This document shows positions 3,611 to 47,860 of a stretch of 64,000 nucleotides of DNA, piece by piece. The notes under the pieces are model-generated. The model made no database searches. It saw only the letters and a program-made list of their open reading frames with translations, and was not told the origin of the DNA. Both the position numbers and the translations under genes were made by a program. This stretch comes from a virus. Positions within the stretch are counted from its first letter, which is position 1, and each line of letters starts with the position of its first letter. The stretch spans positions 1 through 64,000 of the IMG/VR virus record IMGVR_UViG_3300005841_000035; one strand, written 5' to 3'.

Positions 3611-3645
3611 CTTATACCAGTGTGGCTTTTTTGCAGAATGTTAAG
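3611..3645 (-). promoter_or_regulatory. Class A phage promoter before the polymerase operon
   Basis: On the minus strand: TTAACA, 15 bases, then ACACTGGTATAAG, with the ATG of the polymerase N-half nine bases after ACTGGT. The TAA of TTAACA is the stop codon of the upstream gene. It matches six other copies in the window. Confidence 0.7.
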
Positions 3646-3871
3646 CCTTGGCGCGGCAGGGATGGACGCAGAAGCGGTGTTCTGAGGCGAACTTCAGGAT
3701 GCCCCCGGCTGTGCAAATGTGCCCAAGCTCGTTCAACGGTATCCCACTGTAGCCCATTAAGTCACGCCCTTGTTCCGTCGGAAGAAACGAAAAAATTTCT
3801 TCGCGAAGGATGGAAAACGTGAAATAGGTTATCTCTCCGATGCGGAGTTGGTAATGAGTCAGCCGGTTCAC
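3641..3871 (-). CDS. Hypothetical protein, 76 aa
   Basis: Unrecognised small protein with a Cys/His-bearing C-terminus (HICTAGG, HRFCVHPC). The ATG overlaps the upstream stop by ATGA. Its TAA stop is embedded in the TTAACA box of the next promoter. The overlap at both ends supports the reading frame; the function is unknown. Confidence 0.55.
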   Translation of the reverse strand: MNRLTHYQLRIGEITYFTFSILREEIFSFLPTEQGRDLMGYSGIPLNELGHICTAGGILKFASEHRFCVHPCRAKA

Positions 3872-4242
3872 TTGGCACCCCGCTGTTCGGCCACCATCGT
3901 CTCGACGAGGTTCGTAACCGCGAGGGTAACCTTTGCCCTGAATTCCGGGTTCGAGCGCAGTTCGCCGACGCGGCTTTCCACCGTGCCCTCCATCTTCGAC
4001 ACTAAGATTCTCGCCAACTTGTGCTGCACCGCGGTCTGTAGCTGTTTCTTGAAGTCGCCCTTCAACGAACTGTCCAGACTCGTTTCGAGTATCTTCCGGA
4101 TTTCGTCGGTGCGAGATACGACCACAGAGTCGATGAGTTTGGTCAGCGGGTTGTCCCCGTAGCCATGTTGAAGCCGGGCTTGGATGGCCGCGGTCAGCCC
4201 TTCCGTCACGCAGTTGCTTACTTGTTGTTCCAGGTTAGTCAT
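3868..4242 (-). CDS. Hypothetical protein, 124 aa, helical
   Basis: A mostly helical, charged protein beginning MTNLEQQVSNC, chosen because its ATG overlaps the previous stop by four bases (ATGA). A longer in-frame extension to 4323 would overlap the neighbour heavily and is not needed. No family recognised. It sits in the run of small genes feeding the polymerase operon. Confidence 0.6.
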   Translation of the reverse strand: MTNLEQQVSNCVTEGLTAAIQARLQHGYGDNPLTKLIDSVVVSRTDEIRKILETSLDSSLKGDFKKQLQTAVQHKLARILVSKMEGTVESRVGELRSNPEFRAKVTLAVTNLVETMVAEQRGAK

Positions 4243-4550
4243 AGAGTTACTCCGATTGATGGGGTGTGTTGAACTTTGTTGGCCATGATTTTTCGGACCG
4301 CGGCCTCGAGCCGGTCGCGGCACTTCTCCAGCGCGTAGCCGGTGATGCAGCGCAACGCCTCGGGGCAGGGCGGCAAGGGATGCAGCGGCTCGGGCACCTT
4401 CGTTTCGATTTGCCGGATTACGCTATCCACGAGCGCGTTCACCTCTTCGATTGTTTCCTTGGAGACGCGGGTGAACTTGCCGGCGCGATTCGCCTTGGAG
4501 CACTTCAGCAGATACTCCCGGCAGTGGCTTTCGACGATGAGGTCACTCAT
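4239..4550 (-). CDS. Hypothetical protein, 103 aa
   Basis: Helical, with a conserved-looking N-terminal half (RVSKETIEEVNALVDSVI) and a Cys-containing second helix pair. The pattern of two amphipathic helices after a basic N-terminus loosely recalls small phage DNA-binding proteins, but nothing firm can be said. It starts inside the end of the 45-residue membrane ORF (8-base overlap). Confidence 0.6.
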   Translation of the reverse strand: MSDLIVESHCREYLLKCSKANRAGKFTRVSKETIEEVNALVDSVIRQIETKVPEPLHPLPPCPEALRCITGYALEKCRDRLEAAVRKIMANKVQHTPSIGVTL

Positions 4551-4680
4551 GGGCGCCTAAGTAAAACAGACCCCCCAGGGCGACGAACAACAGGGCCAAG
4601 CCGCCGTGCCCGAGGGTCCACGCGATTAGCGCGAACCCCCAGGACACGCCGGCGCCGATACGATGAAGCGCGGAGAGCAT
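4543..4680 (-). CDS. Small membrane protein, 45 aa
   Basis: An ORF of 45 codons whose ATG overlaps the upstream TAA by one base (TAATG) and whose stop overlaps the next start. Two hydrophobic segments (about residues 8-21 and 27-42) separated by a Gly/His turn suggest a two-span membrane protein. It is one of several tiny membrane ORFs threaded into this operon. Function unknown; a holin-like role is possible but unsupported. Confidence 0.5.
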   Translation of the reverse strand: MLSALHRIGAGVSWGFALIAWTLGHGGLALLFVALGGLFYLGAHE

Positions 4681-5693: not shown

Positions 5694-5698
5694 CAATC

Positions 5699-5727
5699 AA
5701 AATCGCACACGGCCGTTCTTTTGTCAA
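5699..5727 (-). promoter_or_regulatory. Class C (sigma-70-like) leaderless promoter
   Basis: Minus strand: TTGACA, exactly 17 bases, GATTTT, then five bases to a GTG start. Same geometry as six other left-arm promoters. Confidence 0.65.
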
Positions 5728-5729
5728 AC

Positions 5730-5773: not shown

Positions 5774-5790
5774 CCGTGGCGACAGCGCAA

Positions 5791-6612
5791 TTAAGCGCCG
5801 ATGATTGACTTCAGGAACGTCTGGAAGATGTCACTATTCCGCGCCGAGGGCCGAAGCTTGGGCACGAAGTAGTAGTTGTCGTCCTTGCTCTCCTTCTTAG
5901 TGGTGAGCGTCCAGGCGTGCGCGAGATACGTCTTGCGCAGTGAACCGCAAGCCCGTTGGGTGCGGATGACTTTCGCTCCCTTGGTGTAAGAGCTGCCCTT
6001 CATGCCCCAGAGGGCGAGCGCGAAGAAGCGGGGAGGCGTGGCGTCGTCCGGCTGGAACTGATACGGGAAAACGTATTGGTCCGGGTCGGCGAAGTCCGCG
6101 GGTTTTTCCACCAGCACTAACGCGGTGGCAAGCGTTTGGAAGTAAGCGAGCGGCTTGCCGCTGGCCTTGGAGGCGTCCCACTCTTTCCAGTTGAGCGTGC
6201 CGTTGTTGCGAACAACTTCGGACTCGCTGTTGAAAAGACGGCCCTGCTTCCCGCCGGCCAGCTTCTCCGCAAATTGCAGCGGGCGGAAGCCGAGAACGGT
6301 GAGGGAGAGAGGCGCCGGTTGCTCCACGTCCTTGATGGGCGCGGGCAGGATTTCCTGCTCGCCGGCGAGCGTCACGCTGCCGGGAGTGAACCCGCCTTCG
6401 GCCATGAGCTTGCCGACGAACTGAACGATGTTCAGCCGGGGGAAAGCGATGTCCTCATAACGGATTGCGTCCTCATCGAAGTAGGACGATTGCGCGTTGC
6501 GCGTCGCCACTTCGTTGCCAGTCGGTTCAGCCGCCGACGGTGCGGGTTCCGGGGTTACCGGAGTCTCGGCGTCTTCAACGCCGTCACGAACGAACGATAC
6601 AGTATCACTCAT
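5791..6612 (-). CDS. Hypothetical early protein, 273 aa, possible ssDNA-binding protein by context
   Basis: Begins MSDTVSFVRDG at an ATG eight bases inside the DUF2800-like nuclease gene. The first 55 residues are acidic and Pro-rich; the rest looks globular with aromatic beta strands and a Lys-rich segment (TTKKESKDDNYY). In many phages a DUF2800 nuclease gene is paired with a single-strand DNA-binding protein, so that role is plausible here, but no motif proves it. The operon ends at the terminator after this gene. Confidence 0.7.
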   Translation of the reverse strand: MSDTVSFVRDGVEDAETPVTPEPAPSAAEPTGNEVATRNAQSSYFDEDAIRYEDIAFPRLNIVQFVGKLMAEGGFTPGSVTLAGEQEILPAPIKDVEQPAPLSLTVLGFRPLQFAEKLAGGKQGRLFNSESEVVRNNGTLNWKEWDASKASGKPLAYFQTLATALVLVEKPADFADPDQYVFPYQFQPDDATPPRFFALALWGMKGSSYTKGAKVIRTQRACGSLRKTYLAHAWTLTTKKESKDDNYYFVPKLRPSARNSDIFQTFLKSIIGA

Positions 6613-7819
6613 TGTTTTGTTTGGTTTTGGTTTTTGGTTTTCCAGTTGTGTCCATTCGCAGATAGGCGAAGGGTTCACCCTCTTCAACGGCGCCGGTCTC
6701 GAGAATTTGTTTCGAGAATTCTTCAACGGCGTCTTCTTTGCTACCGCGGGGTGCGGCAGCAGAGATTAGTTTTTCCAGCGGCGTGATTGGAATGTCAAAC
6801 AGCGCCTCGACCAGCGCGTGCTGGTCATCCGGGAGAAAAGTCTTTGCGATTTCGGCCATCTTCCGCGAATCGCGGACCGCGCGCCGCGCGACCGAGGGCA
6901 CGAGCTTGTAGCCAACAGGGACGAAGTTATCGTCCATGATGGCCTTGTTCGTGGCCTGCTGACGGTATGCCTCGGCCCAGGCTTTCAGCACCTGGGCGAC
7001 CTGCAACCCCATACCAACCATCTTCGGGTCCAGCATCAGCGACGGGGTCAGAGAGTCGGGGATGTCGATGGGGCGATACTTGCGGCCCACGCGCAGCGCA
7101 AGCTCAGCGACCTTCGGGCAGCGCCCCAGGCATCCGCAGAATGAGCACGCGGACACACTGGGGGAGGCTGCCGAAAAGTCCCCCACGCGGTTAGCAGCGA
7201 TAGCACGATGCACGACTGTTTTCACGCGCAGCAATAAAGCGTTTGCGTTAGTCAGGTCGAATGTGTGCTGGTCGGTTTCATCCCGGTGGGGAAGAATAAA
7301 AGTGACGGTGCAGTCCTGCAACGTTGGATAGCGTTTGAGCAGGCCGAGGGCGTAAGCTATGCCCTGAAGATTGTTGTCGGTGGCCTCGACGCCATGCTGG
7401 CCGAACTTGTAGTCAACGATTTCGCCGTGCAGACCGTCCGCGCTCACGAGGGCGAAGTCCGCAAAGCCGGCGGTCGTGCCGGGCCATCCCCGCAACACGG
7501 GCCGCTCTCCGTCCATACCCGGCTCGAGCGTCTTAATGACTTCGTCGTCCACCGGGAGGTATTCCTCGCGAAGGACGGTGCAGCCAGGGAACTTTTTCTC
7601 GATGTCATCACAGAAAAGCCGACACTGGGCGACCGCGGCTGCCTGCGCATCCGACAGTCGCGGGTCGTCCAGCCCGGCCTCTGCGGCGTCGTGCTGCCGG
7701 GTTCCCGCCTCAGACGCCTCGTTCGTTCCATCAGTGGGCGTCCAGCACGGGCAAGCTTCTCGCGCCTGAAGCGTCGAAGGGCTGTAAGGGTGATGTTTTC
7801 TTGTTTCCGCGTTGCTCAT
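6605..7819 (-). CDS. PD-(D/E)XK nuclease-like protein, DUF2800 family
   Basis: 404 residues. The N-terminus YSPSTLQAREACP is typical of RecB-type phage nucleases of the DUF2800 group. The nuclease core is GFADF...GEIVDYK around residues 115-137, giving D, E and K of the PD-(D/E)XK site. A later CSFCGCLGRCP cluster resembles the iron-sulfur or zinc cysteines of AddB-like nucleases. A class A promoter lies immediately upstream. Likely role is recombination or DNA processing during replication. Confidence 0.8.
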   Translation of the reverse strand: MSNAETRKHHPYSPSTLQAREACPCWTPTDGTNEASEAGTRQHDAAEAGLDDPRLSDAQAAAVAQCRLFCDDIEKKFPGCTVLREEYLPVDDEVIKTLEPGMDGERPVLRGWPGTTAGFADFALVSADGLHGEIVDYKFGQHGVEATDNNLQGIAYALGLLKRYPTLQDCTVTFILPHRDETDQHTFDLTNANALLLRVKTVVHRAIAANRVGDFSAASPSVSACSFCGCLGRCPKVAELALRVGRKYRPIDIPDSLTPSLMLDPKMVGMGLQVAQVLKAWAEAYRQQATNKAIMDDNFVPVGYKLVPSVARRAVRDSRKMAEIAKTFLPDDQHALVEALFDIPITPLEKLISAAAPRGSKEDAVEEFSKQILETGAVEEGEPFAYLRMDTTGKPKTKTKQNNE

Positions 7820-7830: not shown

Positions 7831-7862
7831 CTTACCAGTGTAGCCTTTTCCGGATTTGTTAA
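7831..7862 (-). promoter_or_regulatory. Class A phage promoter
   Basis: Minus strand: TTAACA, 15 bases, ACACTGGTAAG. The ATG of the nuclease gene follows 14 bases after ACTGGT. Confidence 0.7.
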
Positions 7863-8240: not shown

Positions 8241-8801
8241 TTAATACTCCAGCCGGAGGACTTCGACGCTTCCTTCATAGATGAAGGACGCAACCGGTGC
8301 GATTTTTCCCGTCGCGGGTTCGAAGAAGAAAACCTCCCCGTCGTTCCGGATAATAAAGTTGATGACATGCAGCCCGGTCACCCACGGCTCGCTGTCGTCG
8401 AAAAGCGAGTAAGGCCCGTCCAGCTTCACGTAAGCCTTGCCGACGAGCACTCCGGGCGACCTGCCACGCCAGTGACGCACGGACCAGCAGCTCGCGAGGT
8501 ATTTGAATTCGGTGGCCTTGTCGTCGCAATCGAAGACGTCCTCGAGCCACGGCCAAGTCTCCTTGCGCGCCGCCCAAAACTTTATCAGGTCGTTGATTTC
8601 CGACTGGGTCGGCGCCAGATAATACCCGTCCTCCGGCCCCAGGAGCCACGGGTTGACCGCCGGCGGACACCAGTTGACCGTTGCGGCCAGCCGAGTTTCC
8701 GCCTCGTCCCAGGTCATAAGCTGGGGAAGGTCTGGGAGTGGGGAGGGGTCGTCGGCTAGGAGAGTCCCCGCCGCCAGCAAGAGAGCCAGGAAGATTTTCA
8801 T
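8241..8801 (-). CDS. Secreted papain/transglutaminase-fold protein
   Basis: 186 residues with a signal peptide (MKIFLALLLAAGTLLA, cleavage near residue 16). C92 in VFDCDDKATEF and H145 in GLHVINF, followed by an acidic FFEP near residue 159, match the Cys-His-acid order of papain-like and transglutaminase-like phage proteins. Such a protein would act outside the cytoplasm, so a role in lysis, entry or envelope modification is possible. It is preceded by a class B (late-type) promoter although it lies in the early arm. Confidence 0.6.
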   Translation of the reverse strand: MKIFLALLLAAGTLLADDPSPLPDLPQLMTWDEAETRLAATVNWCPPAVNPWLLGPEDGYYLAPTQSEINDLIKFWAARKETWPWLEDVFDCDDKATEFKYLASCWSVRHWRGRSPGVLVGKAYVKLDGPYSLFDDSEPWVTGLHVINFIIRNDGEVFFFEPATGKIAPVASFIYEGSVEVLRLEY

Positions 8802-8810: not shown

Positions 8811-8841
8811 TAAGAAGTGGCGGCAGGGCTCGATTTGTCAA
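8811..8841 (-). promoter_or_regulatory. Class B phage promoter on the early strand
   Basis: Minus strand: TTGACA, 15 bases, CCACTTCTTA, with the secreted-protein ATG 11 bases after ACTTCT. This is the only class B copy on the minus strand; the other five precede plus-strand genes. Confidence 0.65.
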
Positions 8842-11441: not shown

Positions 11442-11628
11442 TAGTCTCGTTGGACATGGCGACGGCATTCGCGCACACTTCACAAAAACTGAAGCGGCGC
11501 CCGGTGGCCCTGTCCACAATCGTATACTGCCTCACGTCGCACAGCTTGCCGGCAACGTCCCACGTGAGCCGGTTGTTGTCCCCGGCCTCCAGGTGAAAAG
11601 CACACAGGGGGTTGCAACAAAACTTCAC
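11317..11628 (-). CDS. Small Cys-rich (zinc-finger-like) protein, up to 103 aa
   Basis: GTG start overlaps the upstream TGA (GTGA). Residues 1-60 carry CCNPLCAFH and a later CEVC, a plausible zinc-binding set. After about residue 70 the sequence (HHGDGGGPGPLQSGEG) reads like a shadow of the overlapping gene, so the true protein may be shorter or frameshifted. Confidence 0.45.
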   Translation of the reverse strand: MKFCCNPLCAFHLEAGDNNRLTWDVAGKLCDVRQYTIVDRATGRRFSFCEVCANAVAMSNETNETNKEPQREENRHHGDGGGPGPLQSGEGPLRHRDGAGDAP

Positions 11629-12116
11629 TTGATGCGCAGCGTTAGGTCGCGCGCCGTGGAACCCAGCAGCGCCGTGATGGATTGCGCGAGGTTCGCCGCG
11701 ACGGAGCCGCCCAGGACGTAGCCGCCCGTGATATTGACCGGCGTCCCCCGCAGGCGGTCGCGCAGCGTAACGTGGCAACGGTCCTGCCCGCGGCTAAACC
11801 GCAGGATGATGTCGCATGAGGCGCCGTGAAAAAATACCTGCCCGACGTGCAGTGCCAAAGATTTTTCGTCGCCGTCGTTCGGGAACAACTGGCGGACGGT
11901 CTGACCTTCCGTCAAGCGGATGGGACCTTGTGCGCGCTTCTCGATTTTCGAGCCCACGCGCCGAACGCTCTTGGCGTCCGGGTAAAGTTCCCTCACCTTG
12001 GCCTCGAGGGCGGCGTATGTTTCGCGGGCACCCGCCCCAGGCGAGCCGCAGGGCACTTCGACAGTTACAGGTCCACCGTCCACCATGAACTGTCCCAACA
12101 TCACATTGTTATTCAT
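11625..12116 (-). CDS. Hypothetical early protein, 163 aa
   Basis: Begins MNNNVMLGQF at an ATG nine bases after the ACTGGT of a class A promoter, which overrides a longer in-frame ORF. The sequence is beta-rich with a conserved-looking ETYAALEAKVRELYPDAKSV segment and a Gly-rich hydrophobic end. Function unknown. Confidence 0.6.
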   Translation of the reverse strand: MNNNVMLGQFMVDGGPVTVEVPCGSPGAGARETYAALEAKVRELYPDAKSVRRVGSKIEKRAQGPIRLTEGQTVRQLFPNDGDEKSLALHVGQVFFHGASCDIILRFSRGQDRCHVTLRDRLRGTPVNITGGYVLGGSVAANLAQSITALLGSTARDLTLRIK

Positions 12117-12122: not shown

Positions 12123-12155
12123 CTTACCAGTGTAGACTTTTTCGGATTTGTTAAG
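12123..12155 (-). promoter_or_regulatory. Class A phage promoter
   Basis: Minus strand: TTAACA, 15 bases, ACACTGGTAAGG, ATG nine bases after ACTGGT. The TAA of TTAACA is the stop codon of the SEC-C gene. Confidence 0.7.
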
Positions 12156-15093: not shown

Positions 15094-15122
15094 ATTGTCG
15101 TTCAGGTCGCGGTCAGTGTCAA
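15094..15122 (-). promoter_or_regulatory. Class C leaderless promoter of the SNF2 gene
   Basis: Minus strand: TTGACA, 17 bases, GACAAT, then six bases to ATG. The TGA inside TTGACA is the stop codon of the upstream gene. Confidence 0.65.
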
Positions 15123-16896: not shown

Positions 16897-16925
16897 AATG
16901 TCGCCCATCCGTGGGCGACAGTCAA
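16897..16925 (-). promoter_or_regulatory. Class C leaderless promoter
   Basis: Minus strand: TTGACT, 17 bases, GACATT, five bases (ACGCC), ATG. The spacer holds a short inverted repeat (GTCGCCCAC/GTGGGCGAC on the plus strand), a possible operator. Confidence 0.6.
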
Positions 16926-17849: not shown

Positions 17850-17878
17850 AAGGTCGGCCCTCCGTGGCCGAATGTCAA
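17850..17878 (-). promoter_or_regulatory. Class C leaderless promoter
   Basis: Minus strand: TTGACA, 17 bases, GACCTT, five bases (ACTCA), ATG. The spacer contains an inverted repeat (CGGCCACGG/CCGTGGCCG), a possible operator. Confidence 0.6.
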
Positions 17879-20903: not shown

Positions 20904-21130
20904 AAGATTTTGCCAGACTCGAATGGACCAACCGCAGCCTTGACGTCCACCTTGGCCGGCGCCAGATACTGCAACATGACCGGAAGCGCCGCGTCATGTG
21001 CAGCCCCGGACGAATATATGAGGATAACTTGCAGAGCGACGCGCACCTTGGGCGGAATGTCGGAGCCCTTGAGGGTAGCCGAGACGTTGGCCAGGATGTC
21101 CTGGATGTTTTTGTAGTCGGCGTTAGTCAT
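20900..21130 (-). CDS. Hypothetical protein, 76 aa
   Basis: Starts MTNADYKNIQDILANVSATL by ATGA overlap. Helical, with a hydrophobic middle (VALQVILIYSSGA). Function unknown. Confidence 0.6.
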   Translation of the reverse strand: MTNADYKNIQDILANVSATLKGSDIPPKVRVALQVILIYSSGAAHDAALPVMLQYLAPAKVDVKAAVGPFESGKIL

Positions 21131-21360
21131 ACGTTCAGGTCCCTTCCTTCGGGCATTGTGAAACAGCCGCGGTGATACATCACGCTGGTTCCCTTCCCCT
21201 TGTTTACCTTGTGCTGCCACACCCAATACTTTCGCGGGACATGGACATCACGCCTCACCGGTCCGATGCCCAGCAGGCCGTTCACTGCGTTGATGGTGCT
21301 GACCATTCGGCGCTCTCCGTTGCGCATCTCAACAATAATTTGCGGCGGTTTCATTCTCAT
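21127..21360 (-). CDS. Hypothetical protein, 77 aa
   Basis: Starts four bases after ACTGGT-AAGG of a class A promoter (a second ATG lies six bases on). Beta-rich and basic. Function unknown. Confidence 0.6.
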   Translation of the reverse strand: MRMKPPQIIVEMRNGERRMVSTINAVNGLLGIGPVRRDVHVPRKYWVWQHKVNKGKGTSVMYHRGCFTMPEGRDLNV

Positions 21361-21361: not shown

Positions 21362-21394
21362 CTTACCAGTGTGGCATTTTCCGAAAATGTTAAG
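21362..21394 (-). promoter_or_regulatory. Class A phage promoter
   Basis: Minus strand: TTAACA, 15 bases, ACACTGGTAAGG. The TAA in TTAACA is the stop of the upstream 264-residue gene. Confidence 0.7.
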
Positions 21395-22184
21395 TGATTT
21401 CGTCTTTGCGTCCCATCTTGCGCGTCGCGGCACGGGCAATTGCGTCCTCGGAATAGATGTCCCGAAGCTTCACCCAGGGCGAGCCGGTGTCATTTAGGAA
21501 AAGCTTGCGCTCAATGCGACGCATCCACTCAGCCAAATGCGCGTGCAGCGGGTTAAATTCATCAAGTGTGATGTCGGGCGGGTATGCCTTGGCCATGACC
21601 ACATCATTCCATTGGTCGGACCGCCAGCGGTGCAGCGTGAGCCAACGGTTGTGAACTAAAAACGCGCGCATGTAATCGAGCTGAGGCGCCAACGCATACA
21701 TACCCTCGGCATCGAGCGCGCCCAGGTGCGTGTTCTCATAGTCCCCGTGCTTGGTGCAAATGCGAATTGCCCAGCGACCCAGGCAGAGGTTCCACCTCAC
21801 GCCCACGAGCCGGCGAGTCTGGCCTTCATCGTCTGTCCAAACAGGCAGCCTGTTCTCGGCGCAGGTGTCGAAGGTCCGTGTGCTGCGTGAACGCTTTCGC
21901 TTTTTCGGTGGCCCGGCCTTGGCCTTCTCGATTTTGTCAAACCACTGCGCCTTGTCGTGGAACTTGGTCTCGGCCACCCTGGCTTTGACGGTGTCCTCAA
22001 AAGACAGCGCCCGCTCGCGCGCGTTGGCCGCAAGCGTGCAGTCGTCGCCACCGTCCCGCGCGTAGAGGTTGAACGTGCCCCAATACTCGGCCAGTTGCCG
22101 GATGTATTTGTTCAACTGGGCGCGGCGCTCGCTATTGACGCTGGCCTTTCGTCGGTTCCGCTTTCGTTCAACTTCACTCAGCAT
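21390..22184 (-). CDS. Hypothetical early protein, 264 aa
   Basis: First gene of the leftward module. Strongly basic N-terminus (VERKRNRRKASVN), a KKRKRSRSTRTF basic patch near residue 95, and a Trp/Arg-rich second half. DNA binding is plausible. Preceded by a class A element and, farther up, by a canonical sigma-70 promoter. Confidence 0.65.
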   Translation of the reverse strand: MLSEVERKRNRRKASVNSERRAQLNKYIRQLAEYWGTFNLYARDGGDDCTLAANARERALSFEDTVKARVAETKFHDKAQWFDKIEKAKAGPPKKRKRSRSTRTFDTCAENRLPVWTDDEGQTRRLVGVRWNLCLGRWAIRICTKHGDYENTHLGALDAEGMYALAPQLDYMRAFLVHNRWLTLHRWRSDQWNDVVMAKAYPPDITLDEFNPLHAHLAEWMRRIERKLFLNDTGSPWVKLRDIYSEDAIARAATRKMGRKDEIT

Positions 22185-22190: not shown

Positions 22191-22222
22191 GTTACCAGTG
22201 CGCCGCTTTTGCGAAAAGTTAA
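22191..22222 (-). promoter_or_regulatory. Class A phage promoter (weaker -35)
   Basis: Minus strand: TTAACT, 15 bases, GCACTGGTAACAG, ATG nine bases after ACTGGT. Confidence 0.6.
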
Positions 22223-22949: not shown

Positions 22950-22978
22950 AATATCGCACAGGCGCCTTTACATTGCAA
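22950..22978 (-). promoter_or_regulatory. Class C-type promoter, leftward half of a divergent pair
   Basis: Minus strand: TTGCAA, 17 bases, GATATT, seven bases, ATG. It overlaps the rightward class B promoter by 12 bases, so the two may compete. Confidence 0.55.
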
Positions 22979-22998
22979 GCGAATCGCACACTTCTTTT
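22967..22998 (+). promoter_or_regulatory. Class B phage promoter starting the rightward module
   Basis: TTTACA, 15 bases, ACACTTCTTTT, with ATG five bases after ACTTCT. Confidence 0.65.
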
Positions 22999-23000: not shown

Positions 23001-23174
23001 ATGGATGACCCGAAAAACATCGAGCGTCGGCTGTTCCAATGCGCGCCGCAGGCGGCTAAGGACCTGAACGACAAGGCCAAGAAGTTGATACGCCAGCAGA
23101 AGCGCGCAGACTGGTGGAAGCAACACGCGGACCAACGCTCACGCAAACCACTATCAGGCAATGGGCAGGCTTAA
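23001..23174 (+). CDS. Small basic protein, 57 aa
   Basis: Starts MDDPKNIERRLF right after the class B promoter; a longer in-frame ORF begins upstream of the promoter and is rejected. Basic and helical (DKAKKLIRQQKRADWW). It overlaps the TerS-like gene by 14 bases, so it may be a packaging accessory. Confidence 0.6.
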   Translation: MDDPKNIERRLFQCAPQAAKDLNDKAKKLIRQQKRADWWKQHADQRSRKPLSGNGQA

Positions 23175-24435: not shown

Positions 24436-24467
24436 TTGACATTCCCAAAAACAGTGGCACTGGTAAG
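24436..24467 (+). promoter_or_regulatory. Class A phage promoter on the plus strand
   Basis: TTGACA, 15 bases, GCACTGGTAAG; ATG 11 bases after ACTGGT. It begins a run of nine small genes ending at the recombinase. Confidence 0.7.
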
Positions 24468-26542: not shown

Positions 26543-26763
26543 TAGCCATCATCGCAATCGCCGCTTACTTTGTTTCGGTCATCACGTTGCTGTGCTACGT
26601 GAAATACCTGGACAGCCGCGTAACCAAGTTACAGTTCGAACTTTTCGAATACGCCCGGCAAGAATACGTCTCGCACAGGTTCACCAGCGTGTGGTCGCAA
26701 ATTGTCCGCACACAGGACGACGTGAAAAAACTTCAAGCGAAGCGGGGAGGCAAAAAGAAGTGA
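26539..26763 (+). CDS. Membrane protein with cytoplasmic helix, 74 aa
   Basis: One transmembrane segment (about residues 2-21), then a helix with coiled-coil character and a basic tail. Topology resembles a spanin-like or anchor protein, but no partner is seen. ATGA overlap upstream, GTGA overlap with the recombinase downstream. Confidence 0.55.
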   Translation: MIAIIAIAAYFVSVITLLCYVKYLDSRVTKLQFELFEYARQEYVSHRFTSVWSQIVRTQDDVKKLQAKRGGKKK

Positions 26764-27452
26764 ACGTCGTCGCCTACTACCGCGTCAGCACTCGCGAGCA
26801 GGAAGATAAGACCGGGCTCGAGCGTCAGCAGGACACCGTCGAGAAGTTCGCCGCCTCCAAAGGCATGACCATCGTCCGCTCGTTTTCTGAAGTCCAGTCC
26901 GGCGGCGCGGATATCGAGGACCGCACCATGCTGCTTTCCTTGCTCGACGAGGACGGCGTCAGCGGCATCGTGGTCGAGCGCATGGACCGTCTCGCGCGCG
27001 ACCTCATGGCACAGGAAATTTTTCTTCGGAGCGCGACCACTAAATGTATCCAGGTGTTCACCGCCGACTCCGGCCAGGAGATGACCAACGCGGATGACCC
27101 AACGCGCGTGATGTTGCGCCAAGTCATGGGCGCGCTGGCCCAGTGGGAAAAAGCCGTCATCGTAAAAAAACTTCAGGACGGTCGCCGGCGGACCGCTGAA
27201 CGGACGGGCAAGCCATGCGGGGGTCCGCCACGGTTCGGCTTCCATCCAGACATTCGGACGCGTGGGCATCAGCGGGACATCATCCACTGCGTTAAGAAGA
27301 TGGTGGACGAGGGGTATTCCTACGCGCGCATCGCCCGCCACTTGCAGGCGAACGGCATCTCCCCGCCAACCGGCAAAATCTGGCATCGCTCAACGGTTTA
27401 CAAAATTTCCAAAGTCAATCTTGACAATCCGCCGGCAGGGCACACTTCTTAG
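26760..27452 (+). CDS. Serine recombinase (resolvase/invertase type)
   Basis: 230 residues. YYRVST carries the nucleophile S10; EDRTMLLSLLD and VVERMDRLARD match the conserved serine-recombinase core. After a long helix a short C-terminal domain (YSYARIARHLQANGI, helix-turn-helix-like) binds DNA. The size fits resolvases and invertases rather than large serine integrases. The GTG at 26760 overlaps the upstream TGA and has GGGAGG before it. It lies directly before a fibre-domain gene, so DNA inversion or fibre exchange is an attractive role. Confidence 0.85.
   Translation: MNVVAYYRVSTREQEDKTGLERQQDTVEKFAASKGMTIVRSFSEVQSGGADIEDRTMLLSLLDEDGVSGIVVERMDRLARDLMAQEIFLRSATTKCIQVFTADSGQEMTNADDPTRVMLRQVMGALAQWEKAVIVKKLQDGRRRTAERTGKPCGGPPRFGFHPDIRTRGHQRDIIHCVKKMVDEGYSYARIARHLQANGISPPTGKIWHRSTVYKISKVNLDNPPAGHTS
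27421..27452 (+). promoter_or_regulatory. Class B phage promoter within the end of the recombinase gene
   Basis: TTGACA, 15 bases, ACACTTCTTAGG; ATG eight bases after ACTTCT. The recombinase stop TAG lies in the downstream half. Confidence 0.7.
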
Positions 27453-30726: not shown

Positions 30727-30941
30727 AAGCCGTTCGTCGGGTCGTGGTGGCCGCGGCCACCGGCTCGAAGGTGTTCGTAGGCCCTGAGATAGCCGGCAAA
30801 CGGTTGGACGCCTGCCACCGGTGCCCGAATTTTAAGCCCAAGACTCGGCAGTGCGGCCTGTGTTTCTGTTTTGTGGACGCAAAATCCAAGCTCGCCACAG
30901 AGTCTTGTCCCGACCACAGATGGCCCTTGACAAACGTGTAA
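30693..30941 (+). CDS. Small zinc-binding phage protein, 82 aa
   Basis: EIAGKRLDACHRCPNFKPKTRQCGLCFCF followed by ATESCPDHRW is a rubredoxin-like Cys arrangement found in many phages (RLxxCxxCP...CGxCxC...CPxxxW). Role unknown. GTG at 30693 is used; an in-frame ATG at 30603 would overlap the previous gene by 124 bases. Its end contains the portal promoter. Confidence 0.6.
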   Translation: MQKIKAVKTALKAVRRVVVAAATGSKVFVGPEIAGKRLDACHRCPNFKPKTRQCGLCFCFVDAKSKLATESCPDHRWPLTNV

Positions 30942-30957
30942 ATTCCAACACTTCTAG
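30927..30957 (+). promoter_or_regulatory. Class B phage promoter of the portal operon
   Basis: TTGACA, 15 bases, ACACTTCT then AGGTAAG and ATG seven bases after ACTTCT. Confidence 0.7.
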
Positions 30958-30962: not shown

Positions 30963-33122
30963 ATGCCACTTGCACAGTCATTGCCCGAGCCCTCCTACGC
31001 GAGCGAGCCCCAGGGAGATTTCAAGGGAGCGGTCTCCCCGCCGGACCTTTCGAAGAACCTGAAGCCGGGCAACCGGGCCATCCGCGACGCCGTCCAGGCG
31101 CGAAACATCGTGATGGTGTTGCTTGCCGCGAGCCGGGAGCGTAACATCAAGAACGCGCGCATCCAGGCGAAGGTGAATTCCGAAAAACCGCACCGAACCG
31201 ACGCGCTGGAGAGCGAAGGATTGGCGTGGAAGGCGAACTTCTCGACCAAAGTCCTCGCGATGCTCGTCGAAAAGGTCGCACCGCGGTTCGTGCAGGCCAT
31301 CGAGGGCGTAAAATTTCTCACCAACTCCAAACTTCCCGACGATATCGAAGGTGCCGCGGTCAAAACCGAGGCCTTCCGTCGAGAAATCACGTCACTGTGT
31401 CGCAACCGCGCCGGCTGGCGTGACTTTTTGGGTGACCTCGCGCAGGAGAATGCACTTTTTGGCTGGGCCGTCCTCGCGTGGCTCGATGAATTCAGTTGGA
31501 TGCCGAAATTTTTCCGCCAAGACTTTGCCGCGGTGCCCACCGGGACGAAACCGACTCCCGGAAAAGCGCAGGTCGTGTGTCTCAAGGAAGTTTTTTTGCT
31601 CCACGAGCTGTTCGAACTCATCAAAGACAAGGACGCGGCAAAAACTCGCGGTTGGAACATCGAAAACACGGTCCAGATTATCAACTCGGCGATGCCGCAG
31701 GACCGACGCTCGCAGTATTCCGCCTGGGAACGCGTTTACGAGGACCTGATTCGCGAATCGAACCTCGGATTGTCGCACGAGAGCGGCGCGCGCGTGGTCG
31801 TCGTGTGGCATTTGCTCGCGACGGAGATTGACGGGCAGGTATCGCACTACATTTTCGAAGAAAAGACGTTCACCGAGCTATTCACGAGCGAGGACCAATA
31901 CAAAACGATGGCGGACGCCGCCGCGTTCTTCACTTTTCAGCAAGGCAACGGAACAATTCACGGCTCCAAAGGAATCGGACGCGAACTTTACTCCATTGCC
32001 GGCATCATCGACCGTTCGCGCAACGAAGTTGTGGACCGGCTGAACCTTTCGGGCAAAGTTATCATTCAGGCGGACGAAAAAGTCCTCAAACGCTTCCGAA
32101 TGTCGGTTGTCGGCAACGCGATTCTCATCGCGCAAGGATATAGCGTGCTCGAACGCAAGCTGGACGCCGCGGTTGAACCGTTCGTTCAGCTTGACCAGTT
32201 TTTGACGGGTCTTCTCGACCAGATGGCCGGCGCTACCACGCCGCGCGCGCTCGAGGGCGAGCGCGTGACCAAGGCCGCGGTGGATTTTCTCGCCTCGCGC
32301 GAAGAAGAGACCAAGGACAACGTCATCTCGAGGTTCCTGACGCAGTTTTCTGCGGCGGTGACTACGATTCAGCGGCGCGCGTGCGACCCGAACACTTCCG
32401 AGGACGATGCGAAGGCGATGCAAGAGCGTCTTCTCAAAATAATGTCCAAAGAAGAGTTGAAGATGCTAGCGGAGATGCCTTCGACTGAGACGGTCAAAGA
32501 CTACACCGAGATTAAGCGCCAGCAGGTCGTCATCATCGCGCAAGAAGCCCGCGGCAACCCACTTTACAACGCCAAGGAAATGGAACGGCGCAAACTAATC
32601 GCGCTCGTGGATGAAGAATTCGCGAACTCGGTGTTGCTGCCGGACAACGACCCGACGGAACAGGCCGAGCAGACCCGCGCGCAGATGGTGGAGCTGTCGT
32701 CTCTGATTATTCCGCAAGGGACCGAGGTTCCGGTATCGCCGCGCGACAGTCATCTCATTCACTTGCAGGTTTTGATGCCGGCGCTGGAGTCCACCGCGCA
32801 GCAAGCGGTCCAAGACCCGCACGCCATCCCGACGCTCGTCGCGATTTTGAAACACGCAGCCGCGCACGAACAAATCGGTCTACAGACCGGCGTGGACAAG
32901 GCGGCGATGAAACCTTTCTCGGACATCATCGGAAAACTTACGGCGCAGATGCCGAAACTTATCGAGATGGCCAAGCAAACTGAAATGGCTCAGCAACGTC
33001 AAGCCGAACTGGAAGCAGGGGCGCCTCCTGGACCGACTGACGAAGCTGGCAACCCGATTCCGGGAGCTACTCCGCAAGAAGTGCCGCCCGAACCTGCACC
33101 CGCCCCAGCCCAGACCCTTTAG
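30963..33122 (+). CDS. Portal protein
   Basis: 719 residues, the expected size for a podovirus-type portal. It lies right after the terminase and before the scaffold. The N-terminal two-thirds are mixed alpha/beta with a long helical wing; the C-terminus is Glu/Gln-rich, then a Pro/Ala-rich tail (PPEPAPAPAQTL). The portal forms the DNA entrance ring of the head. The call rests on position, length and overall composition, not on a unique motif. Confidence 0.7.
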   Translation: MPLAQSLPEPSYASEPQGDFKGAVSPPDLSKNLKPGNRAIRDAVQARNIVMVLLAASRERNIKNARIQAKVNSEKPHRTDALESEGLAWKANFSTKVLAMLVEKVAPRFVQAIEGVKFLTNSKLPDDIEGAAVKTEAFRREITSLCRNRAGWRDFLGDLAQENALFGWAVLAWLDEFSWMPKFFRQDFAAVPTGTKPTPGKAQVVCLKEVFLLHELFELIKDKDAAKTRGWNIENTVQIINSAMPQDRRSQYSAWERVYEDLIRESNLGLSHESGARVVVVWHLLATEIDGQVSHYIFEEKTFTELFTSEDQYKTMADAAAFFTFQQGNGTIHGSKGIGRELYSIAGIIDRSRNEVVDRLNLSGKVIIQADEKVLKRFRMSVVGNAILIAQGYSVLERKLDAAVEPFVQLDQFLTGLLDQMAGATTPRALEGERVTKAAVDFLASREEETKDNVISRFLTQFSAAVTTIQRRACDPNTSEDDAKAMQERLLKIMSKEELKMLAEMPSTETVKDYTEIKRQQVVIIAQEARGNPLYNAKEMERRKLIALVDEEFANSVLLPDNDPTEQAEQTRAQMVELSSLIIPQGTEVPVSPRDSHLIHLQVLMPALESTAQQAVQDPHAIPTLVAILKHAAAHEQIGLQTGVDKAAMKPFSDIIGKLTAQMPKLIEMAKQTEMAQQRQAELEAGAPPGPTDEAGNPIPGATPQEVPPEPAPAPAQTL

Positions 33123-37530: not shown

Positions 37531-38465
37531 ACAAGGACTCTGTAATTTATGTGGCCGGGCATCGTGGTCTTGTGGGTGACGCAATTACGCGCCTGCTTCG
37601 CTCGCGCGGTCACACGCGCATCGTTACGGCTACGCGGGAGCAGGGCGACCTCACGGACCCGGTCTTCGTGAAGTGGTTCTTCTCCGTCTACAAGCCGGAG
37701 TATGTTTTTGTGGCGGCGGCGCACGTCGGGGGCATCCTGGCGAATGACCAGAACAAGGTGGACTTTATCACGAAGAACCTCGCCATCCAAAACAACATCA
37801 TCCTCAACGCCGCGGAGTATGGGACGAAAAAACTCCTGTTCCTCGGCAGCTCGTGCATCTACCCGCGTGACGCGGAGCAGCCCATCAAGCCCCAGGCGCT
37901 TTTGACCGGGCCATTCGAACCGACGACCGAGGCGTATGGAATTGCCAAGGTGGCCGGCATTCGGCTGTGCCAGTATCTGCGCGACGAGAAGGGTCTCAAC
38001 TTCATCTGCGCGATGCCGTGCAATCTCTATGGCCCAGGCGACCGGTTCGACAGCGTTCGCTCGCACGTCGTCCCTGGTCTCATCACGCGCATGCTCCACG
38101 CGAAAAAAATGGGGATGCCCGAGTTTGCGGTGTGGGGAGATGGCTCGGCCCAGCGCGAGCTTTTGTATGCGGACGACCTCGCCCGCGCGTGCTCGCTTTT
38201 GATGGACGAATACAACGGGCGCGAGGTGGTGAACACCGGCAGCAGTGACGAGTGGACCATCAAGGCCATCGCGGACGAGGTGCGCAAGGTGGTAGGATAC
38301 ACGGGCTACCTGCATTTCGATTCGGACAAGCCGACGGGCGTCCCCAGGAAGGTCCTGGACAACACCGTCATTCGGTCGCTCGGGTGGTCGCCGCAGATGC
38401 CGTTTCCCGAGGGGCTTCAGAAGACCGTTACGGCGTATCGCCAACGGCTGTCGATTCTTCGTTGA
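37527..38465 (+). CDS. fcl: GDP-L-fucose synthase-like epimerase/reductase
   Basis: 312 residues, short-chain dehydrogenase fold. GHRGLVG (11-17) binds NADP, GSSCIYPR carries catalytic serines 108-109, and YGIAK (Y137, K141) is the YxxxK pair. AAHVGGILAN is typical of GDP-fucose synthase, which turns GDP-4-keto-6-deoxymannose into GDP-L-fucose. The precursor enzyme (GDP-mannose dehydratase) is not in the window, so the host or another part of the genome must supply it. ATGA overlap with the upstream transferase. Confidence 0.85.
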   Translation: MNKDSVIYVAGHRGLVGDAITRLLRSRGHTRIVTATREQGDLTDPVFVKWFFSVYKPEYVFVAAAHVGGILANDQNKVDFITKNLAIQNNIILNAAEYGTKKLLFLGSSCIYPRDAEQPIKPQALLTGPFEPTTEAYGIAKVAGIRLCQYLRDEKGLNFICAMPCNLYGPGDRFDSVRSHVVPGLITRMLHAKKMGMPEFAVWGDGSAQRELLYADDLARACSLLMDEYNGREVVNTGSSDEWTIKAIADEVRKVVGYTGYLHFDSDKPTGVPRKVLDNTVIRSLGWSPQMPFPEGLQKTVTAYRQRLSILR

Positions 38466-38493
38466 CATTTTCGATTTGGGGCGCACTGGTAAG
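38462..38493 (+). promoter_or_regulatory. Class A phage promoter of the HNH gene
   Basis: TTGACA, 15 bases, GCACTGGTAAG, GTG six bases after ACTGGT. The TGA in TTGACA is the stop of the fucose-synthase gene. Confidence 0.7.
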
Positions 38494-38496: not shown

Positions 38497-38949
38497 GTGA
38501 ACGAGAAATATGACCACTGTTCTCGCTGCCACGCGCGACGGAAATATCCGGGGCGAGACTGTTGCAAGGAATGCTTGGTGCGGCATGCCCGAAGAAATTG
38601 TCTTCGTCGAGCCCGCCGAAAGGAACGTTACGCAACAGACCCCGCCTTCAGAATTCGGACAGCTCTGTCCACTCGAATAAACAGCGCGCTGCGGGGCACC
38701 CTTAAAAAGGTGGCGAACACAGAAAAATTGTTGGGTTGCTCTTTCGCGCACTTCCGAGAATACATGGAAGGCCTGTTCAAACCGGGGATGACCTGGGAAA
38801 ACTACGGGGAGTGGCAGGTGGACCACAAAATTCCGTGTGTGAATTTTGACTTGGCGAAAGAATCCGAGCAATACCGATGTTTCCATTACAGCAATTTGCA
38901 ACCCCTTTGGGCAGAGGATAATCTGCGAAAGGGATGGAAAAGTAGTTGA
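38497..38949 (+). CDS. HNH homing endonuclease
   Basis: 150 residues. An N-terminal zinc-ribbon-like CSRC...CCKEC, then QVDHKIPCVNF (D109, H110), FHYSNLQPLW (H130, N133) and EDNLRKG (N142) form a phage HNH nuclease. The GTG start at 38497 is favoured by the class A promoter just upstream. It stands alone between the glycan cassette and the major capsid gene, as a free-standing mobile intergenic endonuclease would. Confidence 0.8.
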   Translation: MNEKYDHCSRCHARRKYPGRDCCKECLVRHARRNCLRRARRKERYATDPAFRIRTALSTRINSALRGTLKKVANTEKLLGCSFAHFREYMEGLFKPGMTWENYGEWQVDHKIPCVNFDLAKESEQYRCFHYSNLQPLWAEDNLRKGWKSS

Positions 38950-38977
38950 CAATTTTGATTTTCCATGCACTTCTTCT
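38946..38977 (+). promoter_or_regulatory. Class B phage promoter of the major capsid gene
   Basis: TTGACA, 15 bases, GCACTTCTTCTG. The TGA in TTGACA is the HNH stop. The downstream half lies within a CCATGCAC/GTGCATGG hairpin (38963-38985). Confidence 0.65.
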
Positions 38978-39128
38978 GTGCATGGACCTTAATCGGCTTC
39001 TCTGGTCCGGAAGCAATCGGCCTAATCTGTCTGCGGCTGGCCGGCGCTGACAGGGTAACTTCGCAGCCCCATTGCGAGGAAAAAAACCGTAAGTGGTTTA
39101 TACCACTTAAATTAGAAAGGCTCTCAAA
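38978..39128 (+). promoter_or_regulatory. Structured 5' leader of the major capsid gene
   Basis: About 150 bases without a gene. Just before the start is a perfect AAGTGGT-TTAT-ACCACTT hairpin (39091-39108), then GAAAGG, which can pair with 16S rRNA, ten bases before ATG. This is the only long leader seen among the class B genes. Confidence 0.5.
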
Positions 39129-40409
39129 ATGAGTGCTGATTGCAATGCGCCCGACGTAATCTCGGAAATCGCCCAAAAGGACGTTTCTCGATTGGTCGGC
39201 ACGGTCGCGAAGACTCTCGCGGCCAACAGCGTATTCATTAACGTCATCGGCGGCGGGGTGTTCCCGTCCGGCGTGTCGGATGAAATTCGCTTCCCCGTTC
39301 AAATGCAAGCCGCCCCTGGCGACTCGCTGGCCCTCCCCACATTCCAGTGTGATACGGAGGTCTGCGGAACCAACGGAATCCAGGACCTTACTGACGCGAT
39401 TGACTTTACCGCTCGCTTGGAAACCAAGCGTGGCCGCGGTCCCCGCGTCTGTGTAAAGAAGGGCTACGCGGCTTTTAAAAGCTCGTATCTCTCTGCGGAA
39501 GACTCACTTAGGAAGCTCGTCACGCAGTATGTCAACGCTGACATCCGCGCCCAGCTCTACCTGCGCAGCGCCTCGAAGTTCAACGCCGTCGCCGGCTACG
39601 ATTTCGATTCTCTGTTCACCGGTGGTGTTGAGACGGACCTAGGCGTCCAGTTCGCCCCACTGTTGCCCACGGGTCCGCTGAGTTTCAAAGCTCTGCACTA
39701 TCTGACTCGCTTCGTCAAGGAAGCGTTGTTCGCGTCGATGTTCGACAGCGAAGGCAAAGGGATGCCCCACGCTCGCTTCATCGGCAGCTCCGACATCATC
39801 GAGAGCTTCCGCAATGAAATCGGCGTGAAGGAAATCCTCATCGGTTTGACGACCGGTGGATACAAGCTGGGCGAGCAGTCCGTTTCTGCTTACCAGTTCG
39901 AAGAGGCGCCCGCTTACCGCGGTATCGCTTTCGGTGTGGACCAACGTCCGCTCCGTGCCACGGGTTTTGACGGCGACGGCAACCTCATCCTGGTTGACCC
40001 CGTCGTGAACGTCCCGAACCTCACCAAGAACACGGCGTATGCCAAGGTCAATCCCGCGTGGTTGGCTGCGGACTACGAAGTCGGGTTCTTGATGTTCGAC
40101 AACACTTTCAACCGGCTGGTTCCGGAGAAGTATGTCGGCGAAGGCACCTTCAAGTTCGCGCCCCAGTTGCACATGGGCGAACTCGAATGGCATTACATCG
40201 TGGACAACGACTGTAATCAGTTCGGCGACTTCGGTTGGCACAAGTATCAGATTACTCGTGCGTATCAGCCGATTCGTCCTCAGCACGTTGTGCCCATCCT
40301 GTATCGGCGCTGCCAAGCGGACCTCGGTCTGCCCGACTGCACCGTGACGGATAGCTCGAGCTTCTCCGGAAGCGACGCGTTTGCCACCTTGGGAGTCTGC
40401 GACTCCTAA
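39129..40409 (+). CDS. Major capsid protein
   Basis: 426 residues, with its own late promoter, a clear ribosome-binding site, and a strong terminator after it, as expected for the most abundant virion protein. The sequence is beta-rich with a long helix-bearing middle and a Cys/Ser-rich end; it has HK97-like length. No defining motif was read, so the call rests on position, expression signals and size. Confidence 0.7.
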   Translation: MSADCNAPDVISEIAQKDVSRLVGTVAKTLAANSVFINVIGGGVFPSGVSDEIRFPVQMQAAPGDSLALPTFQCDTEVCGTNGIQDLTDAIDFTARLETKRGRGPRVCVKKGYAAFKSSYLSAEDSLRKLVTQYVNADIRAQLYLRSASKFNAVAGYDFDSLFTGGVETDLGVQFAPLLPTGPLSFKALHYLTRFVKEALFASMFDSEGKGMPHARFIGSSDIIESFRNEIGVKEILIGLTTGGYKLGEQSVSAYQFEEAPAYRGIAFGVDQRPLRATGFDGDGNLILVDPVVNVPNLTKNTAYAKVNPAWLAADYEVGFLMFDNTFNRLVPEKYVGEGTFKFAPQLHMGELEWHYIVDNDCNQFGDFGWHKYQITRAYQPIRPQHVVPILYRRCQADLGLPDCTVTDSSSFSGSDAFATLGVCDS

Positions 40410-44073: not shown

Positions 44074-44074
44074 T

Positions 44075-45229: not shown

Positions 45230-45438
45230 GTGACTGCACACATCCAGTTCTGCGTGACCCGGAACATGATTTATCTCATCCGTGTTTCCCGCGGCCTTCG
45301 ACGAAAATTTTGCCGGGGCGCACGCTGCCCCCACGCATCATCGTCAACGAATCGATTGACGTGCTCCAGGACGAAGATGGTTTTCCGATTTTGGATGAAG
45401 TCACCGGCTCAACCATCATCGACGATTTGCGAGAATGA
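45226..45438 (+). CDS. Small fibre-associated protein, 70 aa
   Basis: Pro-rich with MSDCTHPVLRDPEHD start; ATGA overlaps at both ends tie it tightly between two collagen-like genes. An attachment or chaperone role is possible but not shown. Confidence 0.5.
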   Translation: MSDCTHPVLRDPEHDLSHPCFPRPSTKILPGRTLPPRIIVNESIDVLQDEDGFPILDEVTGSTIIDDLRE

Positions 45439-46538
45439 AAGTTTCTGATTACGTAAATGGGGCCGAGGCCAATCCCGAGGGATGGTTGTTCATCGCTGAA
45501 CGCCAGCCGCCGGGAGCCCCGAAGCCCTACATCACGAAGAAAATTGCGCCCGACAAACTGGGCGCCACCGGTCCGGCAGGCCCACAAGGTCTGCCGGGCG
45601 TCGGTGCCGAAGGGCCTACTGGCCCGACGGGCGCGGCGGGCAGCGTTGGGCCGACGGGTCCGACGGGCGCCAACGGGGCGGACAGCTCGGATGAGTGGGT
45701 TCATCCCGACGGCTTGTCCCTGGACCTTTTTGAGGAATACGACCCAGGCGCGATTGTCGCTCCGAGCGGTGGATTTGGTTGGGACACCGCCGGCGTTGTC
45801 TCGGGCGGAACCATCGTGCAGCGAAACATCGCGAACGGTCGCACCGAGCGTCGCCTGAGTTTATCCTCCGGCGAATTCGCACGAAAACTTTATGTCGGCA
45901 GCGACTGGCATCGGCTACGAATCGCACTGTTGCTGCGAGTCAACGGTGCATCAACTTTCACCGCGAATGGGTTTGTCGGTCTGTGCTCGGGCACCACGAA
46001 TCCATTCGGCGGGACGACCGACAACGCCATCGGAATTTATTTCGACCCTACGAACGTGAACTCCTGGGTGTTTACGAACGGCACGACCAAGGACTTTTTC
46101 GCGCAGAGTGTCAGCACGCGCTTCGTAACGAAACGCGGCGCTGGCGCCCCAGTAGACCAAGGGGGAGGAAGCGGGTCGGATGGTCGGCGATTCGCATCCA
46201 CGGAGGCTCTGCGCACGATTTTATTTTTGGAAGTCTCGCGGCCCGTGTTCGCCAGCTCCGTTTCGTCTGTTTCATACTCCTGGGGCATGCGCTCGACGAA
46301 TGTGACCCAGGCGGAATTCTCGCTGAGCAAACGCTCGCTGCTCCATTCGATTATGGACAGCGCGAACAACAGCTCTCTCGCGCAGGATGACACGATTGTG
46401 ACGCTCACGGGCGCCAGCACGGTTACCAACGCCTTCGCAGATGACGAGAGCACCGGCGCGTTCGACTCGCTGAATATCCGATGGGACGGCACGCACCCGC
46501 TGGAAATCTGCGGCATGGCCGTTCACAAGATTTACTAA
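45435..46538 (+). CDS. Collagen-like fibre protein with LCSGTT head, 367 aa
   Basis: N-terminal 40 residues, then Gly-X-Y repeats (about 43-75, [20 protein letters not shown]), then a head starting near 80 that contains LRIALLLR...FVGLCSGTT and ends SLNIRWD...[10 protein letters not shown]. Same head as 46540 and as the gene beside the recombinase. Confidence 0.75.
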
Positions 46539-46539
46539 C

Positions 46540-47835
46540 ATGAATTACGCCCTCGAAGAGTTTTACGAGAACGCGCCAATTACCACGGCGGACGACGGTC
46601 ACATCCTGATTGGAAAACTCAACGCGGGTGGAGTGATTCAGCTTTTTCGGCTGCACGTCAATGACCTGAACCATATTGCAGGGCCAACAGGTCCGACAGG
46701 GCCAACGGGTCCGACGGGGGCCGCTGGCACCAACGGAACCAACGGAACAAATGGCGCGACCGGGCCAACCGGTCCGACGGGTCCGACAGGTCCCGTAGGT
46801 CCGACGGGCGCGAATGGTCCAACTGGGCCGACTGGACCCACGGGACCCGCGGGTTCGGCCGGCGCGAGTGGCCCGACAGGTCCGACAGGTCCCACGGGGC
46901 CGACGGGGGCCACGGGCGCGAGCGGGGCCACGGGCGCGAGTGGTCCGACTGGGCCGACAGGTCCAACGGGGCCGACGGGCGCCGGCGGGACGAATGGCTC
47001 GTCCTTCGTTACTGATTCTTTCGCGCTTGAGAATTTTGATGACTACGCGACTGGAGCAATCTCCAACTTTACGAGCGGCTCGGGGTGGAGCGGCTCGGGG
47101 GCGGCGTCTGGAGCGACCATTGTTTCGGTGACGATGCCAGATGGACGAAGCGACAAGCGATTGTCGCTGGCCGGCCCAGGAGAATTCAAGCGCAAAATGA
47201 TTTGGGGAGAAAAGTGGAAGCGCATCCGCGTCGGTCTTTTGCTACGCATCAGCGGGGCGGCGACCATCACTGGGGATTTTCAATTTGGGGTGTGCTCGGG
47301 AATCACCAACGGGGTGGGCAGCACGACCTGCACAAATTACATCGGGTGTGGAACTCGGCCCCTTAACACGAACCAATACACGCACGCGGCTGGAAGCGAT
47401 GTCAACGTGTATACCGCAACTTTTGCGGGCGCGTCATCCAAACGGGTGAACACCTTCACGGACTACGGCGGTTCCTCTTCAATGAAGGGCTACCCTGCCG
47501 CGGGCTCGACGGCTCTTTGCTTGAACGTTTTTGACATCAAGCGCGCACGGCTTTCGGCCAGCGCAACCTACGGCATGTTTGTTCAGGGTCCGTCGCCGAC
47601 AGGAACTACTGGCGGCAGCACGGAACAATTTTTGGATTGGGGTGACCTGCTCGCGGTAATCCAGAACCCGGACACGGCGACCTACAACACCGGATGGTGG
47701 TATGACGGCAATGCGTCCACCCAGTCGGCGACCTTCGACGAATCGGCGGGCGCCCTGGACAGTATCAACATCTGGTGGAGCCATGCCACCACGCCCATCG
47801 AAATTGCCGGTATCGCGGTATGGAAGATGGCTTGA
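46540..47835 (+). CDS. Collagen-like fibre protein with LCSGTT-type head, 431 aa
   Basis: Residues 47-150 are an uninterrupted run of about 35 Gly-X-Y triplets, mainly GPTGPT, the longest collagen block in the window. The head has IRVGLLLR...FQFGVCSG and ends INIWWS...[10 protein letters not shown]. Repeats of this kind at DNA level are prone to slippage. Confidence 0.75.
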
Positions 47836-47860
47836 CAAACGGCTGGAAATCAACACTTCT
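47832..47860 (+). promoter_or_regulatory. Class B phage promoter
   Basis: TTGACA, 15 bases, ACACTTCT; ATG three bases after (second ATG six). The TGA in TTGACA is the fibre stop codon. Confidence 0.7.

Follow-up and report, generated by a model that had tools for sequence, protein, structure and literature searches.

A candidate phage sigma-factor regulon with one −35 element and three −10 boxes in an uncultured phage group

Introduction

The stretch of viral DNA analyzed here, positions 1 to 64,000 of IMG/VR record IMGVR_UViG_3300005841_000035 (hereafter the window; the record totals 71,486 bases), carries in front of a series of its genes an element in which TTNACA is followed, after 15 nucleotides, by RCACTNNT, and this raises the question of which factor would read such an element and why it comes in more than one form. 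A sequence-only reading had distinguished two flavours, termed GG (CACTGG) and TC (CACTTC) here, and had suggested that these are early and late promoters read by different factors. Our analysis points to a phage sigma-factor regulon in which three promoter classes would be served by host RNA polymerase, a reading to which we assign a probability of about 0.6.

Results

All 13 copies read by eye in the window are present, seven on the plus and six on the minus strand, and the exact spacing of 15 claimed for them holds for every one. The window contains 11 exact matches to TTNACA-N15-RCACTNNT where dinucleotide shuffles predict 0.03, none of 100 such shuffles having yielded 11, and two of the 13 copies carry a single mismatch (CCACT in place of RCACT at 8813, and TTAACT at 22194). 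A twelfth exact copy is found beyond the window at record positions 69422-69450, and a weaker site at 62966 combines TTAACA with CCACCTCT as second box. The spacing test comprised four genomes (G000, G001, G002 and G004), in which a spacing of 15 gives 51 motif sites and spacings of 13, 14, 16 and 17 give 0 to 3 each, with one site returned by the reversed control and none by the scrambled −10 control. An open reading frame of at least 50 amino acids begins 0–20 nt downstream of 47 of these 51 sites, compared to 23% of random positions, so that the refuting outcome named beforehand, a motif as frequent within genes as ahead of them, did not arise.

Numbering the first T of TTGACA as −35 places the second box at −13 to −7 and the expected transcription start 35 nt on, all start positions being computed from the sequence. 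Both classes then fit TTGACA-N17-hexamer, with a sigma-70-type −35 element and a 17-bp spacer, and share C−13 A−12 C−11 T−10 and the exact geometry. The GG consensus, which includes an A-tract at −22 to −19, is TT[G/A]ACA-WTTYC.GAAAA-N4-RCACTGG[T/G]A, and the TC consensus is TTGACAA-N14-CACTT[C/A][T/A]TA, without an A-tract. The flavours had been held to differ in two bases, which understates the difference, as only GG sites have T(−1) and an A-tract in the spacer, and the downstream flank differs too. TTCT, the form first given for the TC flavour, does mark a real class, the form of which is wider, CACTT[C/A][T/A]. Sigma-70 requires A−11 and T−7. All tabulated GG and TC sites have C−11, in agreement with the earlier view that the downstream box is not the standard sigma-70 −10 element, and many GG sites have G at −7. 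TAAG or TATAAG downstream of CACTGG was considered as the true −10 element and ruled out, since a 22-bp spacer would be needed. Among 30 distinct GG sites, 28 have T at −1 and all 30 a purine at +1, and the start codon is mostly found 0–5 nt past the inferred start, so that the mRNAs are expected to be nearly leaderless; Shine-Dalgarno sequences are, by inspection, scarce in the genome.

On the minus strand, predicted GG promoters precede a DNA polymerase exonuclease-domain gene (promoter 3616..3644, gene 2533-3606), which is the first in an operon with sigma, a DUF2800/exonuclease gene (7834..7862, gene 6605-7819), a conserved 163-aa gene (12126..12154, gene 11625-12116), a 77-aa gene (21365..21393, gene 21127-21360), a 264-aa gene (22194..22222, the TTAACT site, gene 21390-22184) and, outside the window, a 186-aa gene (record 69422-69450). 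Those on the plus strand precede an 88-aa gene from 24476 (24436..24464, of the plus-strand type with G−33) and an endonuclease VII-like gene with a GTG start at 38497 (38462..38490). GG control would extend to polymerase, exonuclease and endonuclease VII-like genes and to minus-strand genes without assigned function. Predicted TC promoters serve one minus-strand gene, encoding a 186-aa Agglutinin_C-domain protein with a signal-peptide-like N-terminus (8813..8841, gene 8241-8801), and a plus-strand late cluster with tail-fibre and virion-protein matches. Here they precede the first plus-strand gene at 23001 (22967..22995, with TTTACA), a 238-aa gene (27421..27449, gene 27458-28174), a conserved 719-aa gene (30927..30955, gene 30963-33122), a conserved leader of about 150 nt followed by a 426-aa gene (38946..38974, gene 39129-40409) and a conserved 106-aa gene (47832..47860, gene 47867-48184). 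The weaker site, of TC type (62966..62994, plus strand), lies before a 210-aa gene at 63002 and is kept in six relatives. Judged by position and weak matches only, the product of the gene at 30963 is portal-like and the gene at 28489 a putative terminase; position, conservation and weak matches make the gene at 39129 the probable capsid candidate, the predicted structure of its product being unusable (pLDDT 32). The conserved leader upstream of 39129 has no Rfam family above the gathering score and folds slightly better than shuffles (z = −2.0). Annotated phages yielded no DNA similarity to the record, and none for the putative terminase either.

Seven related viral contigs were found via the sigma gene described below, and searches with three further proteins led to many more contigs; overall nucleotide identity of the relatives to G000 is ~70–78%. 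Equivalent sites stand before orthologous genes in the seven relatives and in many further contigs with the flavour kept, GG before the DNA polymerase, DUF2800 exonuclease and 163-aa genes and TC before the 719-aa, 106-aa and 210-aa late-cluster genes. The 186-aa gene (site 69450) has a GG site in G000 and G001 and a hybrid, with a GG-type spacer and CACCTTA, in G002 and G003, from which we conclude that class can switch. In the more distant relatives L052 and L070 the motif is absent.

The earlier division into two classes captured a GG/TC split that follows gene content and missed a third class, whose −35 element is that of the other two. This class, TTGACA-N17-[GT]ANNNT with a start codon 3–9 nt on, occurs eight times in G000 against one to four times at offset controls, and lies ahead of the helicase gene, of small genes on the minus strand and of a 42-aa gene. 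Its members on the minus strand include 15094..15122 (TTGACA-N17-GACAAT, before the SNF2-like helicase gene), 16897..16925 (TTGACT-N17-GACATT), 17850..17878 (TTGACA-N17-GACCTT) and 5699..5727 (TTGACA-N17-GATTTT), the last before the conserved 42-aa gene upstream of the polymerase-sigma operon. The third class retains A−11 and T−7 and is alone in having a −10 element of the sigma-70 type (A−11, T−7, TATAAT), which GG and TC sites lack, and it looks host-sigma-read. As the better candidate for early reading by host sigma, it displaces GG, previously taken as early, to a probably middle position, which makes the order host-sigma (early), GG (middle), TC (late) plausible.

Some mycobacteriophages have start-associated sequences, and the fixed location of the present sites, 0–20 nt before start codons, would suit translation-start-associated or operator elements. 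Set against this are the consensus −35 element, the 17-bp spacing and T(−1)/R(+1) where transcription should begin, the matching geometry of the parallel [GT]ANNNT class, and the one TC site that lies ~150 nt from its gene. We consider start-associated elements a very improbable explanation, and the sites, judged by their sequence, very likely promoters.

Following the earlier proposal that a phage sigma gene be sought outside the window, we found one, on the minus strand at record 69936-70709, encoding a sigma-70-family factor of 257 aa in which Pfam detects Sigma70 region 2 (E = 1.4e-9) and region 4 (E = 1e-14), each above its gathering cutoff. TIGR02937 (sigma-70 superfamily) scores 79.4 bits against a cutoff of 42.9; among the sigma models listed this general superfamily cutoff is reached and no full-length family cutoff is. 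The 257-aa length is backed by conservation of the reading frame upstream and by an ATGA at which the gene overlaps the one before it. The structure model, built on an N-terminally truncated 205 of 257 aa, is of moderate confidence (pLDDT 67, pTM 0.40), and its Foldseek matches to sigma subunits serve as supporting evidence only. HMM searching detected no second sigma-like protein or paralogue. A phage RNA polymerase of the T7 or N4 kind was dropped as reader of the sites, since the scanned proteins, a 2044-aa one included, have no match to such a family.

Region 4.2 of the phage sigma reads TRERIRQI or TRERVRQI, and is thus RpoD-like, in six phage sigmas and TRARVHQI in two (G000 and G001), and from this likeness TTGACA is predicted as the −35 target. 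Alignment of region 2.3/2.4 sets phage FAAYAKPYIRSEIA against RpoD FSTYATWWIRQAIT, the equivalents of W433, W434, Q437 and T440 being P, Y, S and A/K, at variance with RpoD, and the P, Y and S being invariant in eight phage sigmas. Q437 and T440 read −12 in sigma-70 (PMC2613000). As the changes fall on residues by which RpoD reads and opens TATAAT, a non-TATAAT −10 element is predicted. The region 3 segment is short. In the sigma operon the order is polymerase exonuclease (GG promoter 3644), polymerase, primase-helicase, sigma and RuvC-like resolvase; the record ends join inside the 743-aa gene preceding sigma, the probable primase-helicase gene, whose product carries a Walker-A-like motif. 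Because a GG site heads this operon, sigma would control its own expression, and because the nearest promoter upstream of sigma is of the GG class, the first sigma needs read-through from an upstream host-type promoter, which the conserved one further upstream (5727 in G000) could supply.

The sequences show covariation of sigma with promoter base −33. In E. coli sigma-70, E585Q and R588H relax −33 specificity (PMC2613000), and in the G000 and G001 sigmas the equivalents of E585 and R588 are A and H. Within the clade of these two genomes (clade I), 18 of 20 A-tract GG sites carry A or T instead of G at −33, compared with none of 26 elsewhere (p = 7e-11, the sites not being phylogenetically independent), the two that keep G−33 being plus-strand sites. 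The A/H change is known from two sequences and is maybe one event, while the promoter change is seen in about eight genes. Third-class sites, an internal control, have G−33 in 19 of 19 cases in clade I and 29 of 29 in clade II.

Could a host alternative or unusual primary sigma read the CACT boxes, with the phage sigma serving something else? The −35 element and spacing are host-like, and searches of bacterial genomes with the sigma and the portal-like protein gave no match and identified no host. The GG −33 change, however, coincides with phage-sigma changes at two −33-governing residues (PMC2613000), and the host-like promoters of the same genomes are unchanged at −33. A host reader for the CACT boxes is therefore improbable in our view, and the GG promoters are likely read by the phage sigma.

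The TC class is less clear-cut, as 15 of 19 clade-I TC sites keep G−33. Since these and the plus-strand GG sites retain it, a single sigma with relaxed −33 specificity is insufficient for all classes, and because clade-I TC sites mostly keep G−33, unlike GG, a co-factor for TC is proposed. An arrangement with two factors goes further, reserving the phage sigma for GG and assigning TC to host sigma with a phage co-activator or to an unrecognised late sigma. Next to the −33 contrast, it would account for the confinement of the A-tract and T(−1) to GG and for a flavour fixed gene by gene. It is at odds with the C−13 A−12 C−11 T−10 and exact geometry common to GG and TC, with the single sigma-like protein from the HMM search, with a slight excess of non-G−33 TC sites in clade I (4 of 19 versus 1 of 32 elsewhere, p = 0.06) and with the precedent of phiEco32, in which one sigma (gp36) reads middle as well as late promoters (PMC4281155). 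Two such factors appear rather unlikely, and one phage sigma for both GG and TC is favoured, its role at TC being probable, if less so than at GG. The original proposal that the flavours are read by different factors is unsupported as it was stated, with one sigma-like protein detectable and CACT common to both, and with the clade-I −33 contrast leaving room for a second TC factor.

The fuller reading is that the sigma keeps the host −35 code, that its −10 element is recoded to CACT with two gene-class flavours, and that the E585/R588 equivalents and −33 (about eight promoters) changed jointly, within a genome in which all three promoter classes are near-leaderless. We rate this reading, which includes the joint change as a natural counterpart of classical sigma-suppressor genetics, as marginally better than an even bet.

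Discussion

In the model with one phage sigma, all steps would employ host RNA polymerase and a single geometry, with TTGACA, a 17-bp spacer and a start mostly 0–5 nt before the start codon. Host sigma would first read the TTGACA-N17-[GT]ANNNT promoters of the helicase and of small early genes. The 257-aa phage sigma would then displace host sigma, its region 4.2 reading TTGACA and its altered region 2.3/2.4 reading CACT at −13 to −10, and would fire the GG promoters (CACTGG, spacer A-tract) of replication genes and, in positive feedback, that of its own operon. Finally the same sigma, probably aided by a further phage factor or acting by lower affinity, would fire the TC promoters (CACTT[C/A]), which serve late genes, those for the virion included.

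In SPO1, gp28 is a phage sigma that redirects host polymerase to middle genes (PMC3594737), as is proposed here; the present phage differs from the SPO1 cascade in the one sigma detected and the unchanged −35 element. Likeness to phiEco32 and 7-11 (Kuravirus-like; PMC4331800, PMC4281155, PMC3594737) extends to a similar genome size, to structural genes on one strand with replication genes on the other and, as proposed here, to early promoters for host sigma-70 and to a single phage sigma that serves slightly differing motif versions at middle and late promoters. A small phiEco32 protein modulates some promoters (PMC4281155, PMC4331800). The phiEco32 motif, tAATGTATA, is unrelated to the present one and is placed 6–8 nt ahead of the start, the cited passages describing no −35 element for it, whereas the present phage keeps TTGACA and has a fixed 17-bp spacer, a CACT −10 element with two flavours and nearly leaderless transcripts (predicted). 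A tblastn search with the phage sigma matched 25 records; the 20 listed share less than 40% identity with it, and phiEco32-like phages are not among them. RpoD, RpoH and FliA can be aligned with the phage sigma over regions 2 and 4, region 4.2 being near-identical to RpoD in six relatives, and the phage sigma differs from all three in its short region 3 and its −10-reading residues.

If the model is true, the genes are sorted into host-read, middle and late classes by three −10 codes that share a single −35 element, in a compact natural system with a specific sigma candidate. The regulon would then predict gene timing for an uncultured phage group common to many metagenome contigs, and the −33 covariation makes the evolution of sigma specificity testable on short promoter fragments. 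A second coordinated change affects position −7, where clade I, G002 and G003 have T and almost every A-tract GG site of G004–G007 and the L062/L083 group has G.

As can be seen from the alignment with relatives (A7), the TC promoter, the class mostly found at late genes, and the 426-aa gene at 39129-40409, probably the capsid gene by position, are separated by a conserved leader of about 150 nt (window 38975-39128), for which no Rfam family reached the gathering score, and in the related contigs L039/L040 the same place holds unrelated sequence. The promoter motif is absent from the distant relatives L052 and L070, which share 45% identity in a capsid- or portal-like protein. In the related contigs G004-G007 and the L062/L083-group, base -7 (counted from the predicted start) changes from T to G in a coordinated manner across the A-tract GG sites; the plus-strand-type GG sites of these contigs mostly lack this change. 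HNH endonuclease-like genes with their own GG promoters lie within the late region of L040, L041 and L044, where these promoters carry the clade's version of the box, and of the window (promoter at 38462), this likeness being checked for the window 38497 gene and judged by look for the others.

A third promoter class, TTGACA-N17-[GT]ANNNT, was recognized as a sequence motif on the minus strand at window 5727, 15122, 15395, 16288, 16925 and 17878 and at record position 67799, and goes with predicted leaderless starts. Several of its spacers contain GC-rich inverted repeats whose arms differ. A serine recombinase/resolvase gene (230 aa, window 26760-27452) lies directly ahead of the late cluster. 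Finally, the contig ends meet within a single 743-aa primase-helicase-like gene (window 1-1449 joined to record 70706-71486), and the record is therefore probably circularly permuted or complete.
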